Part shown: piece by piece, positions 10,702 through 29,306 of the stretch
How the letters are laid out: each line of letters opens with the position of its first letter
How positions within the stretch are numbered: the stretch's first letter is position 1
Assembly: GCA_024709955.1 (NCBI GenBank)
Contig: JANJVS010000172.1
Coordinates: 1-33,313 of the forward strand
Length of the DNA: 33,313 nucleotides
DNA from: Rhodocyclaceae bacterium
Lineage (GTDB): Bacteria; Pseudomonadota; Gammaproteobacteria; Burkholderiales; Rhodocyclaceae
Direction of reading: 5' to 3'
Notes under the pieces: generated by a model
What the model was told of the DNA's origin: nothing
The model's input: only the letters and a program-made list of their open reading frames with translations
Databases searched by the model: none
Program-made: the position numbers and the translations under genes

Positions 10702-10772
10702 GACTCTGAGATGGTGACGATGCGGGCAGCGATGGTAGAAAATGGCGGCGCTTGCCGTCAAGCGAGGCTTGC

Positions 10773-10778
10773 AGAATG
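10773..10778 (-). promoter_or_regulatory. putative -10 of the FNR-dependent hemN promoter
   Basis: CATTCT on the minus strand is centred 32 bp from the centre of the FNR box at 10801-10814, the spacing of class II FNR promoters. Transcription would start near 10766, giving a leader of about 65 nt before the hemN GTG. Confidence 0.45.
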
Positions 10779-10800
10779 CAGCAAGCGGCCCCGATCCACG

Positions 10801-10814
10801 TTGACACAGATCAA
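10801..10814. promoter_or_regulatory. FNR/Dnr box between hemN and fnr
   Basis: TTGACACAGATCAA matches the FNR consensus TTGAT-N4-ATCAA at nine of ten defined positions. It lies 43 bp before the fnr start and 100 bp before hemN. It fits class II activation of hemN (see the -10 at 10773-10778). In the fnr direction a weaker -10 (CATACA, 10836-10841) also lies at about the right distance, so autoregulation is possible. Confidence 0.85.
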
Positions 10815-10856
10815 AGCCCCCATACATCCACACGGCATACAGCGGGGCGCGCGGCG

Positions 10857-11594
10857 ATGCATGCGCAAGTAGTCCCGCTGTCGGTTCCGGCGCTGCGCGA
10901 AGCCTGCTCGCAGTGCAACCTGCGCGAGCTCTGCCTGCCTGTCGGCTTGTCGGAGAACGAGCTCGACCAACTCGATCAACTCGTCCATCTGCGCAAGAAG
11001 ATTCACCGCGGCCAGCATCTCTACCGCGGCGGCGACGCCTTCGAGGCGATCTACGCCATCAAGACCGGCTTCTTCAAGACCGACGTGCTGCTGGAGGATG
11101 GCCGCGAGCAGGTCACCGGCTTCCAGATGGCCGGAGAAATCCTCGGCATGGACGGCATCGGCTCGGAAAAACATACCTGCAACGCCGTCGCGCTGGAGGA
11201 CAGCGAGGTCTGCGTGATCCCCTTCACCGAGCTCGAGGAGTACTCGCGCGAGATCAGCGCGCTGCAGCACCACTTCCACAAGGTGATGAGCCGCGAGATC
11301 GTGCGCGACCACGGCGTGATGATGCTGCTCGGCATCATGCGCGCCGAGGAACGACTGGCCGCCTTCCTGCTCAACCTGTCGCAGCGCTTCACCGCGCGCG
11401 GCTACTCGCCCACCGAGTTCAACCTGCGCATGACGCGCAACGAGATCGGCTCCTACCTCGGCCTCAAACTCGAAACCGTGAGCCGCGCCTTCTCGCGCTT
11501 CCAGGAGGAAGGGCTGATCACGGTGCACCAGAAGCACATCCAGATCCGCGACGCGGCCGGCCTCAAGAAGCTGCTGTCCGACCGGCGCGTCTGA
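10857..11594 (+). CDS. fnr: oxygen-sensing transcription factor FNR
   Basis: The 245-residue CRP-family regulator holds an oxygen-labile [4Fe-4S] cluster. The four cysteine ligands are visible: Cys17, Cys20, Cys26 (ACSQCNLRELC) and Cys108 (KHTCNAV). The cyclic-nucleotide-like domain is followed by the dimer helix and a helix-turn-helix with ETVSRAF, whose Glu and Arg read TTGAT half-sites. ATG 10857 is chosen because it precedes the conserved cysteine region at normal FNR distance; the frame stays open upstream across the FNR box. It is divergent from hemN and meets the SirB-like gene tail to tail with no gap. Confidence 0.95.
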   Translation: MHAQVVPLSVPALREACSQCNLRELCLPVGLSENELDQLDQLVHLRKKIHRGQHLYRGGDAFEAIYAIKTGFFKTDVLLEDGREQVTGFQMAGEILGMDGIGSEKHTCNAVALEDSEVCVIPFTELEEYSREISALQHHFHKVMSREIVRDHGVMMLLGIMRAEERLAAFLLNLSQRFTARGYSPTEFNLRMTRNEIGSYLGLKLETVSRAFSRFQEEGLITVHQKHIQIRDAAGLKKLLSDRRV

Positions 11595-12030: not shown

Positions 12031-12738
12031 ATGACCCAGAATCAGGAAAATCGCATCGACATCCCCGCGCTGCTCGCGCGCCTGCCGCTGTTCCAGGAAC
12101 TGACCCCCGAACAGGTGGCGCAGATCGCCGCCAATACCCGCGAAAAGCGCCTGTCCAAAGGCGAAATGCTATTCCAGAAAGGCGATCCCTCGCGCGGCTT
12201 CTACGTCATCGTCTTCGGCCAGCTCAAGCTCGCCTTCCCCTCCTCCAGCGGCAACGAAAAGGTCGTCGACATCCTCGGCCCGAAGCAGAGCTTCGGCGAG
12301 GCGGTGATGTTCATGGACCGCCCCTATCCCGTGTTCGCCGAGGCCATCGCCGACACGCTGCTGCTGCACGTCGCCAAGGACGCCGTGTTCGAGCTGCTCG
12401 CCGGCGACCCCTCCTTCGCCCGCCACATGCTCGCCGGCCTGTCGATGCGCCTGCACTCCCTGGTGCAGGACGTCGAGTCGTATTCGCTGCGCTCCAGCGC
12501 CCAGCGTGTCATCGGCTACCTGCTGCAGCACTGTCCGAGCGAAGGCAACGGCAACTGCGAAGGCAGCATCGACATCACGCTCCCCACTTCGAAGCAGATC
12601 ATCGCCTCCCGCCTCAACCTCACACCCGAAACCCTGTCGCGCATCTTCCACGATCTGGCCGAAGCCAAGCTGATCAGCGTCCAGGGCAAGCAGGTCACCA
12701 TCAACGATCTCAAGCGGCTGCGGGAATACGACTTCTAG
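12031..12738 (+). CDS. dnr: Dnr-type CRP/FNR-family regulator
   Basis: The 235-residue protein has the CRP-family sensor domain (about residues 15-130, with KGEMLFQKGDPSRGFYVIVFGQ-like strands), a long dimer helix and a C-terminal winged helix. The recognition helix TPETLSRIF has the same E-x2-SR reading residues as FNR, so it should bind the same boxes. The N-terminal cluster cysteines of FNR are absent. This fits the Dnr/NnrR group, which senses NO through heme and activates denitrification genes. The assignment to NO rather than another signal is inferred from the family and from the neighbouring O2/NO genes. A good ribosome site (GGAGAGAGG) lies just before ATG. Confidence 0.85.
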   Translation: MTQNQENRIDIPALLARLPLFQELTPEQVAQIAANTREKRLSKGEMLFQKGDPSRGFYVIVFGQLKLAFPSSSGNEKVVDILGPKQSFGEAVMFMDRPYPVFAEAIADTLLLHVAKDAVFELLAGDPSFARHMLAGLSMRLHSLVQDVESYSLRSSAQRVIGYLLQHCPSEGNGNCEGSIDITLPTSKQIIASRLNLTPETLSRIFHDLAEAKLISVQGKQVTINDLKRLREYDF

Positions 12739-12750
12739 CGCCACGCCGGC

Positions 12751-14049
12751 TCAGACCGCCGCTGCCGTCTTGTGCTCCAGCTCTGCCTTGAAGCGCCGGT
12801 AGACGCGCACCGCCTGCAGCAGGTTGAGGCCGAGCCAGACGCAGTCGATGGCGAACACCAGCCCCGCCAGGCGCGCCAGTGCCGGCTGCCAGACCGCGAG
12901 CAGCAGCAGGGCAAGCCCCAGCAGATGCATGTAATACTGGCGGCGCATGGCTCGTTCGGGAATCATCTGGTTCATCGTCGGCGGCAGCATGTTCAAGCCG
13001 CACAGCCGCTGCAGGTGCAGCCAGTTGAGAAAGGGCATGATCTTGTAGAGCATGCCCTGGATCGCGGAGACGAAAACCCCGACCAGCGCAAGCATGCCGA
13101 TCCATATGGCGGCACGTGGATCGTTCCAGAAATCGGGCCGCACGGCGAACAGCAAACCGGACAGGAAGATGGCGAGCAGGCACAGCATCGCGGTGCGGAA
13201 GAACAGCAGGGTCGTGTCGCTCACCTTGCGCCGGCGGCGGCTCTGCAGATACAAGGTTCCGACGGCGAAGGCGCTACCGACCGCCAATCCGAAGAGCAGG
13301 ATGCCCATGCGCAGGTTTTCGCCCAGGCCGGCAAGCTGCGCCGACCAGGCCAGCAGCCCCAGCAACAGCATCACGGGCAGGCCGCGTGCCAGCCAGGCCG
13401 GGTAGGCCGGCGTCAGCTGAAACATCGGCACGACGAAATAGGAGACCCCCGCCAGCAGCATCAGTGCCCAACCGCCGAGTCCCCAGCCGACATGCACGTC
13501 CGTGAGGGTCAGCAAGGGCAAATCGCTGCCGCGCGCGAGGCCGGTCGCCAGGGTGACGCCGAGCCCCATGGTGACCAGCAGGCCAAGCAGCGCGATACGC
13601 AGGGCCATGATCGTCGCGCCCCGCGCCGGCGTGCGCCATAGGGCAAGACTGACCACCACGCCGAAGAAAGCCAGCGTCACCAGGAAGACATGGGCGGCGG
13701 CGATGAAGAGCGGCGGATGCATGCTGAGGAATGCCGCGACCAGCAGACTCACCGCGACGATCAGCAGCGGATGCACGGCGCCGGCCACCCAGGTCGGTCG
13801 CCAGATGTTGCCGCCGGCCGCCACCGGCACGAACTGCATCAACGCTCCGCACATCGCCTGCAGCATGAACCCGGCCACCAGCAAATGGGTTGCGGCGAGG
13901 GTGCCCGGTGTCCAGCGCGAGGCCAGCATCTCGCCGCCGAACACGGCCAGTAAGAGACCGGCGGCGACGCCGAACCAGGGAGCGGTCAGGAAAAACCGAT
14001 AGGGAACCCCGATGGGTGGCGCCTGTTCGAAAGACAGATTCGGGTGCAT
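12751..14049 (-). CDS. polytopic membrane protein, COX1/NnrS-like
   Basis: The 432-residue protein has about twelve membrane helices. Its histidine patterns recall heme-copper oxidase subunit I and NnrS relatives: a His in THLLVAGFMLQAMCGALMQF, a second in AAHVFLVTLAFFG, and DVHVGWGLGGWALMLLAGVS followed by VVPMFQLTPAYPAW. I cannot see a full set of heme-copper ligands, so enzymatic oxidase or NO reductase activity is not claimed. Proteins of this sort often accompany denitrification genes and NO-defence systems. It is the last gene of the minus-strand O2/NO cluster, 21 bp downstream of the DUF2249 gene, and meets dnr tail to tail. Transcription through the FNR box at 14816 could reach it. 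Confidence 0.7.
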   Translation of the reverse strand: MHPNLSFEQAPPIGVPYRFFLTAPWFGVAAGLLLAVFGGEMLASRWTPGTLAATHLLVAGFMLQAMCGALMQFVPVAAGGNIWRPTWVAGAVHPLLIVAVSLLVAAFLSMHPPLFIAAAHVFLVTLAFFGVVVSLALWRTPARGATIMALRIALLGLLVTMGLGVTLATGLARGSDLPLLTLTDVHVGWGLGGWALMLLAGVSYFVVPMFQLTPAYPAWLARGLPVMLLLGLLAWSAQLAGLGENLRMGILLFGLAVGSAFAVGTLYLQSRRRRKVSDTTLLFFRTAMLCLLAIFLSGLLFAVRPDFWNDPRAAIWIGMLALVGVFVSAIQGMLYKIMPFLNWLHLQRLCGLNMLPPTMNQMIPERAMRRQYYMHLLGLALLLLAVWQPALARLAGLVFAIDCVWLGLNLLQAVRVYRRFKAELEHKTAAAV

Positions 14050-14815: not shown

Positions 14816-14829
14816 TTGATTCTGGTCAA
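14816..14829. promoter_or_regulatory. FNR/Dnr box upstream of hemerythrin-DUF2249
   Basis: TTGATTCTGGTCAA has one change from the ideal palindrome. It lies between the ODP gene and the hemerythrin gene and is correctly spaced for class II activation of the latter. Control by Fnr, Dnr or both cannot be told apart from the box. Confidence 0.8.
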
Positions 14830-19495: not shown

Positions 19496-19509
19496 TTGAT
19501 CTGCATCAA
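19496..19509. promoter_or_regulatory. perfect FNR/Dnr box upstream of usp-hemerythrin
   Basis: TTGATCTGCATCAA is a perfect FNR palindrome. Its centre is only 39 bp from the usp start codon. Class II activation would put the transcription start at about 19544, inside the gene, so its position suggests repression or an unusual promoter arrangement. It is 158 bp from phaC. Confidence 0.85.
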
Positions 19510-24811: not shown

Positions 24812-26251
24812 TCAGTGGGCGTGTGCGGGCTCAAGCACCTTGGCGTCATCGACGGCACGACCGGAGGCGATGGTCTTGAACATGTTGTAGGCCATGAGGA
24901 TCATGCCGCTAAGGAACAGCAGACCGCCAACCACGCGGATCGTCCAGAACGGATAGGATGCCTTCACGGACTCCACAAAGGCGTAGGTCAGGGTGCCATC
25001 GGCGTTGGTGGCACGCCACATCAGACCCTGCATGACGCCGGAAATCCAGAGCGCGGCGATGTAAAGCACCGTGCCGAGAGTGGCGAGCCAGAAATGCACA
25101 TTGACCAGCTTGGTCGAATGCATCTCGGTCTTGCCGAAGAGTTTCGGAATCAGGTAGTACATCGAGCCGATCGACACCATGCCCACCCAGCCGAGCGCGC
25201 CGGAATGCACGTGGCCGACGGTCCAGTCGGTGTAGTGCGACAGCGCGTTCACGGTCTTGATCGACATCATCGGACCTTCAAAGGTGGACATGCCATAGAA
25301 GGACAGCGAGGTGATCAGGAACTTCAGGATCGGATCGTCGCGCAGCTTGTGCCAGGCACCCGACAGGGTCATGATGCCGTTGATCATGCCACCCCAGGAA
25401 GGCGCCAACAGGATCAGCGAGAACAGCATGCCGACCGACTGAGTCCAGTCGGGCAGCGCGGTGTAGTGCAGGTGGTGCGGGCCAGCCCACATGTAGGTGA
25501 AGATGAGGGCCCAGAAGTGCACCACCGACAGACGATAGGAATACACCGGGCGCCCGGCCTGCTTCGGCACGAAGTAGTACATCATGCCCAGGAAGGCGGC
25601 GGTCAGGAAGAAACCGACCGCGTTGTGGCCGTACCACCACTGGATCATCGCGTCCTGCACGCCGGCGTAGGCCGAGTAGGACTTGGGCGTCAGGATGCCG
25701 GCCTCGAAGACCGGGATTTCCGCGCTATTGAAGATGTGCAGCAGGGCAACGGCGATGATGAAGGCGCCGTAGAACCAGTTGGCGACATAGATGTGCGGCG
25801 TCTTGCGGGTGCCGATGGTGCCGAAGAAGACGATGGCGTAGGCGACCCAGACGACGGTGATCAGCAGGTCGATCGGCCACTCGAGCTCCGCATACTCCTT
25901 GCCGGACGTGAACCCCAGGGGCAGCGAGAGGGCGGCGAGAACGATGATCAGCTGCCAGGCCCAGAAAATGAAGGATGCCAGACCGGGAGCAAACAGCGTG
26001 GTATGGCAGGTACGTTGAACGACATAGAAAGAGGTGGCGAACAGCGCGCAACCACCAAATGCAAAAATCACCGCGTTGGTGTGGAGCGGACGGAGACGAC
26101 CGTAGCTCAGGAATTCGTGCACGTTAAGTTCAGGCCAGACCAGCTGGGCGGCAATGATGACGCCGACCAGCATGCCGACGATGCCCCAGATTACGGTCAT
26201 CACGGCGAACTGGCGCACGACTTTGTAGTTGTAAGTCGCTTGCGATTGCAT
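24812..26251 (-). CDS. ccoN: cbb3 oxidase catalytic subunit CcoN
   Basis: The 479-residue, twelve-helix heme-copper subunit reduces O2 with high affinity and pumps protons. Heme and copper ligand regions are visible: [41 protein letters not shown] and [16 protein letters not shown] 26251 is chosen because AGAGGTG lies nine bases upstream; a GTG at 26263 would add four residues. It is driven by an FNR-type class II promoter at about 26323, as expected for an oxidase made at low oxygen. It heads ccoNOQP. Confidence 0.97.
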
Positions 26252-26329
26252 GATGGTTTTCACCTCTCTTATAGAAAAAACAAAACCTATTCCCCTTCTC
26301 CACCAACAGCACGTGGAGGCTGGGGGCGG

Positions 26330-26356: not shown

Positions 26357-26370
26357 TTGACCCAGATCAA
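26357..26370. promoter_or_regulatory. FNR/Dnr box of ccoNOQP
   Basis: Reads TTGACCCAGATCAA on the plus strand, TTGATCTGGGTCAA on the coding strand of ccoN: nine of ten defined positions match. The -10 TATGCT lies at class II distance, so activation by Fnr is expected. Confidence 0.88.
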
Positions 26371-26425: not shown

Positions 26426-26455
26426 AAAAAAAAAGGGTGCGCTGTAAGCGCACCC
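26426..26455 (-). terminator. strong intrinsic terminator upstream of ccoN
   Basis: On the minus strand GGGTGCGCT, loop TAC and AGCGCACCC form a perfect 9-bp stem (26455-26435), followed by nine T residues (26434-26426). It is the best intrinsic terminator in the window. It would end either the short FNR-driven transcript from about 26522, read-through from ccoI-ccoS, or both. Confidence 0.9.
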
Positions 26456-26522
26456 CCAACCCCAACAGAGAGACTAACCAGTTCGGGCCCGCATCCATGC
26501 TGCCGGACGCACACCCAAAGTG
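26426..26522 (-). ncRNA. candidate FNR-activated small RNA (about 97 nt)
   Basis: The 332-bp gap between ccoS and ccoN holds a complete small transcription unit on the minus strand. It has an FNR box (26570-26557), a CATAAT -10 exactly 32 bp from its centre (26534-26529), a predicted start near 26522, and a perfect terminator with a U9 tail at 26426. The RNA would have an imperfect 5' hairpin (GTCCGG pairing with CCGAAC), then a U/C- and G-rich single-stranded stretch containing GTCTCTCTGTTGGGG. The long U tail suits Hfq binding. FNR-induced small RNAs are known elsewhere (FnrS in enterobacteria, AniS in Neisseria), but sequence kinship is not claimed. The alternative is that the box drives an untranslated leader and the terminator serves ccoIS. 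Confidence 0.55.
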
Positions 26523-26528
26523 GTGCGG

Positions 26529-26534
26529 ATTATG
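26529..26534 (-). promoter_or_regulatory. -10 of the small RNA promoter
   Basis: CATAAT on the minus strand matches the sigma-70 consensus at five of six bases. It is centred exactly 32 bp from the FNR box at 26557-26570. Confidence 0.6.
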
Positions 26535-26556
26535 AATATCGACCCCAAAATGAGCA

Positions 26557-26570
26557 TTGATCTGCGTCAA
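26557..26570. promoter_or_regulatory. second FNR/Dnr box, between ccoS and ccoN
   Basis: TTGATCTGCGTCAA matches nine of ten consensus positions. It lies 13 bp beyond the ccoS stop and about 200 bp upstream of the ccoN box, too far to be part of the ccoN core promoter, and it has its own -10. Confidence 0.88.
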
Positions 26571-26583
26571 CATTCCACCCAAT

Positions 26584-26793
26584 CTAGGTTTTCAATTTAT
26601 CCGGCTCCGAACCCGCTGGCTCTGCGGTCACCGCGGGCTGCTCGGCCGTGGGAGCGTCATCGTCCATTAGGATGCGGTAAGCAGGCCCTTCCAGATCCTC
26701 CATCTGGCCACTCTTGAGCGACCACCAAAAGATTACCCCTATCACAAACACCAATAGCACGGAAAAGGGTATGAGCAAATACAGGCTTTCCAT
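26584..26793 (-). CDS. ccoS: cbb3 oxidase maturation protein CcoS
   Basis: A 69-residue protein with one helix (residues 2-25, ESLYLLIPFSVLLVFVIGVIF) followed by the conserved WWSLKSGQMEDLEGPAYRIL and a variable acidic tail. CcoS is required for insertion of heme and copper into CcoN. ATG 26793 is chosen because GGGAGG lies seven bases upstream; the frame can be read from a TTG at 26814 but without support. It follows ccoI by 17 bp. Confidence 0.93.
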   Translation of the reverse strand: MESLYLLIPFSVLLVFVIGVIFWWSLKSGQMEDLEGPAYRILMDDDAPTAEQPAVTAEPAGSEPDKLKT

Positions 26794-26810
26794 CGGGCAC
26801 CCTCCCCTGG

Positions 26811-29306
26811 TCAAACCGGTGTCGAGTTGTGCGGTACATTTTTCTGCAACCGCAACGCGTTCATCACCACTAACAGCGAACTCGCCGACATGCCTATGCC
26901 CGCCATCCAGGGAGTAACCAGCCCGGTCATGGCAAGCGGAATAGCAACCACATTGTAGGTGAAAGCCCAGACAAGATTCTGATGGATGATGCCGAGAGCC
27001 CGGCGCGCCATGCCCACGCCGCTAGCGAGATGAACGGGATCGTTGGACAACAACACCACATCGGCCTGGCTGCGCGCCAGATCCGTTCCTCCGCCCATGG
27101 CAATGGACACATGGGCTTGCGCAAGCACCGGTGCATCATTCACGCCGTCGCCAACCATCGCCACGGTCTCGCCCTCCGCCTGCCGCGCGGTCAGATAGGC
27201 ATGCTTGTCCTCCGGGGTCATGCCGCCATGGTGGTCGTCGATGCCCAACTCCGCCGCCACCGCCGCCACCGTCTGTGGCGCATCGCCGGAAAGGATCGTG
27301 AGCTTGACCCCTTGCGCACGCAGCCTGCCTAGCGCTTCCCTGGCTCCCGGGCGCAGGGTGTCGGCGATACGGAACCAGGCCAGCCAGCCCGTGGCGTCTC
27401 CCAACGCGACCACCGAATCGCTGGCGGACAGCCACGCCGAAAACACCCCCGGCACCCCTTGGCCGTGCAATTCGGCGACGAACTCAGGAATGCCGATGCG
27501 CACTTGGTCGCCGTTTTCCCGCCGCGCCTCGATCCCTTTCGCCGTCAGCGCCCGCAGGCCGGACAAGGCCACCGTCCCGCCAGCGCCGACTTTTTCCAGC
27601 AGGGCGCGGGCCACCGGATGTTCGGAGGACTGCTCCAGCGCGCGCACCAGCGCATGGATTTCGCGTTCCCGTGCCGGATCTTGGAGGCGCATCTCGATCA
27701 CGGTCGGTCGGCCGAGGGTCAAGGTACCGGTCTTGTCGAATATCCAGCGACCGGCCCGCGCCAGGGTTTCGATCGAATGCCCGTGGGTAACCAGCAGCCC
27801 TTCCCGCGCCAGGGCGCCGGTGGCCACCGTCAGCGCGGCCGGCGTCGCCAACGACAGCGCGCACGGGCAACTCACGACCAGTACCGCGACGAAGACCCAC
27901 AAGGCCCGCTCCGGATCGGCATCCAGCCAGTACAGTCCCGTCGTCAGCGCCAAGGCCAGCAGCACCCAGACGAAACGCATGGCGATGCGGTCCGCCAGCA
28001 GCACCAGCGCCGGCTTTTCCCCGGCCGCCTGCTCCATGAGGCGACGGATCGATGCCAGACGCGTCGCCTCGCCGACACGGTCGAGACGCACCACCAGCGG
28101 GCTGGCAACATTCACGCTGCCCCCGGTCACCCGATCTCCCGCGCAGCGCGGCACGGGCCGGCTCTCCCCGGTCAACAGCGACTCGTCGCTGCTGCTGTCT
28201 CCCTCGATCACCTCGCCATCTCCGGGGATCACCTCTCCGGGCCTTACCAGCACGACATCCCCCGCCCGCAGATCGGCCACCGCCACGCGCTCGCCGACGC
28301 GATTCGGCCAGTCGGCCAGGCGCTCCGCAAAGGCGGGCAACGCGCGCGCCAAGGCCTCCACCCCTCGCGCGGCCTTCTGGCGCGCCATCATCTCCAGATA
28401 GCGCCCCGAAAGCAGGAAGAACACGAACATCGTCACCGAATCGAAATACACCTCTCCCGCCGCGGTGAGCGTCGCCCAGACACTCGCGGCGAAGGCGCTG
28501 CCGACCCCCAGGGCCACGGGAACGTCCATGCCGACCCGCTTGAACTTCAGATCGCGCCAGGCGTTGGCGAAGAAGGGTGCGGATGAATAGACGATCACCG
28601 GCAGGGTCAGGATCAGGCTCGCCCAGCGCATCAGTTGCTCGATATCGTGCGTCATGTCGCCATCGGCAAGGTAGACCGGGATGGCATACATCATCACCTG
28701 CATCATGCCGAAGCCGGCGACGAAAAGCCGCCATTGCGCGGTGCGCCGCTCCTTCTGCGCCAGTTGCTCGGACTTGGTCACGTCGTAAGGATGGGCGCGG
28801 TAACCGATGGCCTGGATCGCCTCGAGGATCGCCGAGAGCTTGGTGACCCCGTCGTTCCAGCGCACGCGGGCGCGGCGAGTCGCATAGTTGATATCGACCG
28901 CCGTCACCCCGGGTTGGCGCGCGATATGCGCCTCGTTGAGCCAGACGCAGGCAGCGCAGGTGATGCCCTCGAGAATCAGCGCCGCCTCGCGCTCGTGAGC
29001 GCCCACCGGGCGCACGAAGTTCTTCTGCACGTCCGGATGGTCGAACAGACCGAGTTCCTGCAAGGCTTGGGGCATGGCCTCGCGCGGACTCTCCGGCAGC
29101 GCATCGCGATGGCGGTAGTAATCGGTCAGCTTGTTGGCGACGATCGCCTCGGCGACGGCCCGGCAGCCCGCGCAACACATCGTGCGCGGCTGGCCGTCGA
29201 TATCGACATGGAAGTCGGCGCCTGTCGGCACCGGCAGACCGCAGTGATAGCAGTTTTCGGTATCGCTCAACGACGGGCTACTTGGGCTGCATGCGAATGG
29301 CGCCAT
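26811..29306 (-). CDS. ccoI: copper P1B-type ATPase CcoI (FixI)
   Basis: The 831-residue inner-membrane ATPase exports copper for cbb3 oxidase assembly. The N-terminus has CYHCG and CCAGC, the additional metal site typical of CcoI, then an HMA domain with [12 protein letters not shown]. The membrane motif is [13 protein letters not shown], the phosphorylation site DKTGTLT, the HP motif [10 protein letters not shown] and the hinge [10 protein letters not shown]. It differs from CopA in these N-terminal sites. Copy G of the dispersed repeat lies directly after the HP motif and is read as EKVGAGGTV (about residues 569-577). ATG 29306 overlaps the end of the SDR gene by 29 bp; GAGGTG lies ten bases upstream. 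TTG 29270 is an alternative. Confidence 0.95.
27569..27600 (-). repeat. dispersed 27-bp repeat, copy G (in ccoI)
   Basis: On the minus strand this reads GAAAAAGTCGGCGCTGGCGG then GACGGTGG, the exact consensus. It is sense to ccoI and encodes EKVGAGGTV in the nucleotide-binding domain, in the same frame as in copA and trhP. Confidence 0.9.

Follow-up and report, generated by a model that had tools for sequence, protein, structure and literature searches.

We propose that the gap between ccoS and ccoN in the genome of this Rhodocyclaceae bacterium encodes a trans-acting small RNA about 97 nt long, activated by FNR at low oxygen, which would pair with the ribosome binding sites of its targets, probably with the help of Hfq, the best of these targets being the mRNA of a DsrC/TusE-family protein and folE2 a likely second one. 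In our judgement this reading is highly probable. Comparison at the level of sequence demonstrates the conservation of the promoter, the core and the terminator, the covariation of the terminator stem and the complementarity to the DsrC-family leaders; transcription, dependence on FNR, the use of Hfq, repression and the purpose of the system are inferred. The element looks like an unnamed, oxygen-controlled small RNA gene, its expression being inferred, with a core that is nearly unchanged in many soil and wastewater bacteria.

The predicted gene in the ccoS-ccoN gap

The window, by which we mean the whole stretch of 33,313 nucleotides that was analysed, reads on its minus strand in the order ccoI, ccoS, a gap of 320 bases, ccoN and then ccoO and ccoP, as judged from Pfam and the open reading frames (Table 1). 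An FNR box, TTGATCTGCGTCAA, stands 13 bases beyond the ccoS stop codon, and its centre is 32 bp from the centre of a CATAAT hexamer, which is the class II spacing. The terminator, GGGTGCGCT-TAC-AGCGCACCC, consists of a perfect 9-bp stem followed by nine T and ends at 26426. The earlier note had described this box, the hexamer at 32 bp and the 9-bp terminator with its U9 tail, all of which were confirmed by direct reading and by scans, and the separate FNR box that it placed beyond the terminator for ccoN is likewise present. The transcription start was inferred from the class II position (box centre at -41.5 from the start) and leads to a predicted length of about 97 nt up to the terminator. 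The predicted fold of the whole RNA has a z of -4.63, and none of 200 shuffled sequences was equally stable.

Table 1. Coordinates of the features of the locus and of the likely activator gene in the window
Feature	Positions	Strand	Basis or remark
ccoI	26811-29306	-	Pfam and ORF list
ccoS (FixS family)	26584..26814	-	Pfam PF03597
ccoN (cbb3 oxidase subunit I)	24812..26263	-	Pfam PF00115
FNR box TTGA-N6-TCAA of the putative small RNA promoter, palindromic	26557..26570	-	Read directly and motif scan
-10 hexamer CATAAT	26529..26534	-	Read directly
5' part of the predicted RNA (start inferred, ~26522)	26478..26522	-	Hairpin here; sequence variable between species
Conserved predicted target-binding stretch TTAGTCTCTCTGTTGGGGTTGGGG	26454..26477	-	Last bases double as foot of the terminator stem
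Intrinsic terminator with T9 tail	26426..26457	-	Scan and stem covariation
Separate FNR box, ccoN promoter	26357..26370	-	Motif scan
fnr, likely activator	10752..11594	+	NCBIfam NF008365, 253.9 bits, cut-off 228

Sites of the form TTGA-N6-TCAA are over-represented in the window (five vs 0.26 expected; none of 100 shuffles reached five). The three further perfect boxes lie by hemN/fnr (10801-10814), near 14.8 kb (14816-14829) and before a PHA synthase gene (19496-19509). A sigma-70 scan of the window found no two-hexamer promoter, and terminator-like sites number 3 vs 1.7 expected, neither scan being significant alone. What goes beyond chance, as far as comparison of genomes can tell, is the arrangement conserved elsewhere, and its conservation across genomes rules out a chance origin. 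A second Crp/Fnr-family regulator, whose top NCBIfam match is FtrB, below cut-off, adjoins fnr on the plus strand (12031-12738), so that another regulator of this family might recognise the FNR boxes too.

Conservation and distribution of the element

A blastn search with the 171-base element found matches in 29 of 61 genomes, comprising all 19 of the genus (own genome included), 10 of 18 from other genera of the family and none of 24 from other families. The whole query was matched in its own genome and the 3' half alone in the other 28. Wherever the contig extends far enough, these 29 loci have ccoS/ccoI before them and ccoN after them, with the exception of L019, where no ccoN was found within the locus (L030, a second match at the same place as L028, was dropped from the counts). 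The 18-mer TCTCTGTTGGGGTTGGGG is found in at least 118 stretches of GTDB species genomes. The genera among the titles listed (80 of 118) include Azoarcus, Thauera, Aromatoleum, Azonexus, Dechloromonas, Zoogloea, Denitromonas, Parazoarcus, Uliginosibacterium, Tepidiphilus, Sulfuritalea, Accumulibacter and Desulfobacillus, together with many unnamed Rhodocyclaceae and betaproteobacterial bins; matches in the unrelated genera Nocardioides and Ruegeria proved to be due to chance. Among these 118 stretches, 112 adjoin ccoS, ccoN or ccoI on the same strand and six adjoin none of them. Six chance loci (L042, L044, L097, L130, L140 and L142) were left out of later counts.

The earlier note had named the comparison of box and -10 in close relatives as a check on its proposal, and both elements held. 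A perfect TTGA-N6-TCAA box is upstream in 29 of the 29 blastn loci and within 200 nt in 108 of the 112 cco-linked 18-mer loci; one more locus matches the box at 7 of 8 positions, two of the remaining three have less than 50 nt upstream, and L107 has no box in 200 nt. In both sets together, 137 loci have a perfect box, and 133 of them have the -10 at a distance of 21 or 22 nt, the commonest hexamers being CATACT (55) and CATAAT (15). The 18-mer set was preselected for the exact 18-mer, and the two sets (L001-L029 and L031-L148) share species in part, so the counts are not independent.

Within the predicted RNA, UCUCUGUUGGGGUU, which precedes the terminator, hardly varies, and the 5' half does, differing between species in length and in letters; the element has its own terminator, and coding potential was not formally scored. 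The predicted length ranges from 65 to 148 nt, with a median of 95 (125 distinct transcripts). The alignment, which leaves out L028, a repeat variant, and L051, whose end could not be located, contains 118 distinct cores after merging of identical ones, and the columns TCTCTGTTGGGGTT are invariant in all of them, part of these cores having been chosen by the exact 18-mer. The earlier note had spoken of an unpaired stretch. The conservation of the stretch before the terminator is borne out, this being the most conserved part of the RNA; as to pairing, its first 14 bases are predicted to be free in only about half of the cases (median unpaired 0.51, 125 predicted folds), because UCUC can pair weakly both with GGGG inside the core and with bases of the 5' half. 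The terminator stem is paired in 96.0% of cells, compared with 73.7% for the best slid version, and 6 of its 10 pairs have changed on both sides; on four of five measures of covariation none of 500 shuffles was as high, and on the fifth one was. A core that hardly varies, a variable 5' half and a covarying stem are, so far as an alignment can indicate, the pattern of a base-pairing small RNA.

The repeat variant from G010 (L028, about 1507-1580 of the locus, minus strand) has a core with five G runs, GGGGTT being repeated, where the others have two. These runs could allow a G-quadruplex or a longer pairing stretch.

A covariance model, R1, was built from the 3' half cores without demanding the exact 18-mer. 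It matches 157 of 199 sampled genomes of the family at an E of 0.001 or better, the weakest lying near the limit, and 55 of the 68 genera sampled, the other 13 being without a match. When R1 was run against 399 genomes of the order, 43 had a match. Scores above 60 bits came from 13 genomes of the family and from two outside it, G229 and G209 (the latter genome 6% contaminated), in both of which the match lies between ccoS and ccoN. The other 28 genomes belong to other families and gave weak matches of 24.7-39.7 bits. Loci of fifteen of these 28 genomes were examined; none matched the seven cco-region proteins used, two were AniS-like, and the rest resembled ordinary terminators, the sequence ahead of the stem differing from case to case. 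One genome of another family, G205, has three weak matches, of which L165, the one examined, carries UUUCUCUAUGGGGGUUGG before its terminator and has no FNR box nearby; this type of locus is possibly a different small RNA family.

About 600 bases before ccoN were compared in 16 genomes, twelve of other families and four of family members without the RNA. A perfect FNR box precedes ccoN in 14 of them, and R1 finds nothing before ccoN in 15, the single match, in G035, being very weak (12.5 bits). In seven of the 16 (six of other families and G024) ccoS is directly before ccoN without the RNA, and gene order alone thus does not bring it. Seven family genomes without the RNA were searched for ccoN. 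Only remote matches were found in G020, G022 and G031 (the first two are 83-84% complete), no ccoS precedes ccoN in G035, G032 and G023, and the family member G024 has ccoS-ccoN and lacks the RNA. Taken as a trend among the genomes sampled, within the family the RNA tends to go with an intact ccoS-ccoN arrangement. In G035 (L316) a short frame before ccoN, standing where other genomes have ccoS, resembles by eye CydX, the small subunit of cytochrome bd.

Predicted targets and proposed mechanism

Targets were predicted on the complete chromosome of a member of the same genus (G017), by using crude gene calls (2447 ORFs, 2446 of them scored) and a score that sums duplex energy and target opening. 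The top four genes are cydA (-36.3 kcal/mol), a 250-residue protein without Pfam match (-32.8), a DsrC/TusE-family gene (-29.4) and folE2 (-29.2); the best and the fourth of these scores were each reached by none of 80 shuffled seeds. The chromosome as a whole shows no excess of strong sites: 165 genes score -16 kcal/mol or below, and 15 permuted seeds gave 302 on average.

The DsrC/TusE-family mRNA is the best conserved of the predicted targets and the best supported in the genus. A search of 16 genomes gave a DsrC-family match in 14, the best match being taken from each (G025 and G029 had none), and with G017 this makes 15 leaders, which include G000 and two other genera; L335, a second piece of the gene of L333, was dropped. 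All 15 leaders examined carry a near-complement of the core near CCCCCAACYCYAACAGAGAGG, over the ribosome binding site. Their mean score is -33.5 kcal/mol compared with -20.5 for shuffled cores, none of 100 being as good, and 14 of the 15 fall within the lowest 0.6% of all genes of G017, the leader of G014 being at 3.2%. An independent blastn match of 29 nt at 90% identity, on the minus strand of G016 (C10:13690-13718), is the leader of a DsrC-family gene that starts at 13725; it is the sole match of the search with the 171-base element that is neither the RNA nor its repeat variant. No DsrC match was obtained in 24 of 34 further family genomes, and the leaders of the ten matches stood outside the leader test. 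Since many genomes outside the genus lack a DsrC relative, this target cannot explain the family-wide conservation of the RNA. The exact target pattern was found at nine non-RNA places in 36 genomes of other genera vs four for the reversed pattern, and no family-wide target emerged from the exact-pattern matches in these genera, where sites are rare.

We consider folE2 a likely second target, predicted from its leaders and weaker than the DsrC family. The gene is present in all 28 genomes searched. The same-genus leaders have a mean of -25.7 kcal/mol vs -21.2 for shuffled cores (0/100 as good), 10 of the 19 lying at or below about 1% of background and the other nine at 3.8 to 52%. In ten other genera the signal is weak (-22.6 vs -20.5, 0/100), with one leader in ten near 1%. 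In G002 (C1:1737679-1738362) five tandem pieces after folE2 resemble the last 35 residues of FolE2. Two further candidates were rejected. For cydA, relatives of which occur in just two of 28 other genomes, four leaders were compared and 2 of 100 shuffled cores were as good, the effect coming from G017; the three other leaders lie at 3.1 to 40.8% of background. For malate synthase, 75 of 100 shuffles were as good over 11 leaders, and the site is not conserved.

Both conserved predicted targets have IscR-like boxes upstream. Compared with the IscR type 1 consensus, the DsrC-family leader of G017 matches at 22 of 25 positions and the folE2 leader at 20, against a background in which 99% of 2446 genes of G017 score 18 or less. 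Such boxes, scoring 18 to 23, are found in 32 leaders of relatives (14 DsrC-family and 18 folE2), and they stand upstream of both targets in G000 (L353, DsrC-family; L340, folE2). Other genes of G017 with IscR-like boxes are not predicted targets (1290, 338, 2294 rank 260, 1557 and 1408). We offer only tentatively, and at somewhat less than even confidence, the idea that the family-wide RNA carries the low-oxygen signal of FNR to genes with IscR-type boxes, silencing a DsrC/TusE-family gene and folE2 through occlusion of their ribosome binding sites. If this were true, oxygen sensing and iron-sulfur status would meet on the same mRNAs.

In the mechanism that we propose, FNR would bind its box at low oxygen and start the small RNA from its own class II promoter, while ccoN would be switched on in parallel from its own FNR box, with the surrounding cbb3 genes. 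The transcript would stop at its own terminator, and its U- and G-rich stretch, CUCUCUGUUGGGGUUGGGG, may then cover the ribosome binding sites of selected mRNAs and block their translation, a pairing in which Hfq would probably take part. The complete chromosome G017 encodes both Hfq (135.7 bits, cut-off 95) and a relative of fnr (83% identical to FNR of the window, tblastn). Of the features expected of an FNR-activated small RNA, two are borne out by the sequence, a box at about -41.5 before a -10 and conserved pairing with target mRNAs, the former with a start that is itself inferred and the latter as complementarity alone. The DsrC-family sulfur-handling gene is probably switched off when oxygen is low, repression being inferred, and we infer that the purpose may be to lower the sulfur relay and GTP cyclohydrolase under oxygen scarcity. 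The suggestion of the earlier note that the RNA helps to rebalance expression at low oxygen has in this way gained a concrete predicted target, and no experiment supports it.

Alternative explanations and known small RNAs

The terminator lies after ccoS and before the ccoN promoter, where it would end ccoIS transcripts too, and the earlier note had allowed that this might be all it does. Such a mere ccoIS terminator, with ccoN controlled from afar by a second FNR site, is very unlikely in our opinion, as it would leave the conserved promoter and the pre-stem stretch unexplained: a terminator needs neither 14-18 conserved nt before its stem nor a box and a -10 at fixed spacing, yet both have been kept and the sequence between them has changed, and the upstream stretch shows complementarity to an mRNA leader that is conserved. 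We find it hardly credible that the element is a cis-acting RNA leader or attenuator controlling read-through into ccoN. It does precede ccoN in almost every locus in which that gene is within reach; however, ccoN has a perfect FNR box of its own between the terminator and its start in 113 of 123 loci, and no such element occurs in the genomes of other families compared here in which ccoN directly follows ccoS.

A common origin with a known RNA is conceivable, if unlikely, the gene being in that case a highly diverged homolog of AniS of Neisseria and both representing one old betaproteobacterial FNR small RNA. The layout of AniS is alike, with an FNR class II promoter, a 5' stem-loop, a U/G-rich stretch and a GC terminator with U8, the Rfam AniS model (RF02274) aligns end to end with the RNA of the window at 19.1 bits, and two genomes of another family contain AniS-like loci that R1 scores at 28.2 and 28.3 bits. 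Every AniS score is however far under the cut-off of 50, those of 14 other loci not exceeding 26.4 bits, and membership in this family was rejected; the core sequences are unlike (UCUCUGUUGGGGUUGGGG vs CCUCUUGAUGUGUGUGUUUGGGG), and gonococcal FnrS/AniS adjoins bfrAB, not ccoN, according to the accessible part of its description (PMC3032703). The claim of the earlier note that the RNA is unrelated to FnrS and AniS has been neither proved nor refuted by these scores. We retain a trans-acting, FNR-activated small RNA as the best explanation of the locus.

No published report of a small RNA in the cco gap was found in our literature searches. Two papers on the low-oxygen switch, in Accumulibacter (PMC6446978) and Aromatoleum (PMC9765128), treat FNR and promoters and note FNR motifs, and in neither text does the term "small RNA" refer to a gene of this kind (0 occurrences in the former and 1 in the latter, in a general remark). 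Members of the Rhodocyclales, among them Azoarcus, Aromatoleum, Thauera, Dechloromonas, Zoogloea and Accumulibacter, are important in denitrification and in the treatment of wastewater. If our proposal is true, a conserved FNR-driven small RNA among the cbb3 genes would extend the low-oxygen switch to the post-transcriptional level; its target can be named, and the pairing site can be tested directly. Control by FNR-activated small RNAs that differ in sequence from group to group would then seem to be a solution that recurs.

In an Rfam covariance search of the ccoS-ccoN gap no family reaches its threshold, and FnrS is not among the matches listed for the locus. SorX and SorY of Rhodobacter are the best-scoring families on the cco-gap RNA, all below cut-off, and membership was rejected for both (SorY RF02651, 21.4 bits in the window and at most 38.6 in 14 other loci, cut-off 111; SorX RF02784, 22.8 bits, cut-off 46.6). 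They have in common with our RNA a CUCYCUGUUGG just before the terminator, and differ in being named for singlet oxygen resistance. S17/bdhR1, the Betaproteobacteria toxic small RNA of Rfam (RF02278), is, in the available part of its report, an Hfq small RNA of betaproteobacteria in which a stretch of 27 nt is fully conserved, and it is reported from Aromatoleum and Desulfobacillus (PMC11722255). The cco-gap RNA is likewise a conserved betaproteobacterial RNA, and it is a separate gene: the locus scores only 17.3 bits with RF02278 (cut-off 50), and in G028 S17 is at 514166-514231 (65.5 bits) and the small RNA at 2291231-2291283. Copies of RF02278 above cut-off number three in G474:C1 and two in G422:C1.

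The two FNR-dependent RNAs known from other groups offer the closest comparison. folE is a target of FnrS. AniS, or gonococcal FnrS, shares with the cco-gap RNA an FNR class II promoter, a 5' stem-loop, an unstructured stretch and a terminator, and differs from it in core sequence and in genomic place, lying by bfrA/bfrB, as far as the accessible text goes (PMC3032703). FnrS of E. coli, in the part of the study at hand, is directly activated by FNR from a site at -42.5, and the genes regulated through it include gpmA, cydDC and sodB (PMC3688515). The cco-gap RNA resembles it in being a small RNA activated by FNR, in our case by prediction, and is set apart from it by the position of its gene in the cbb3 cluster.
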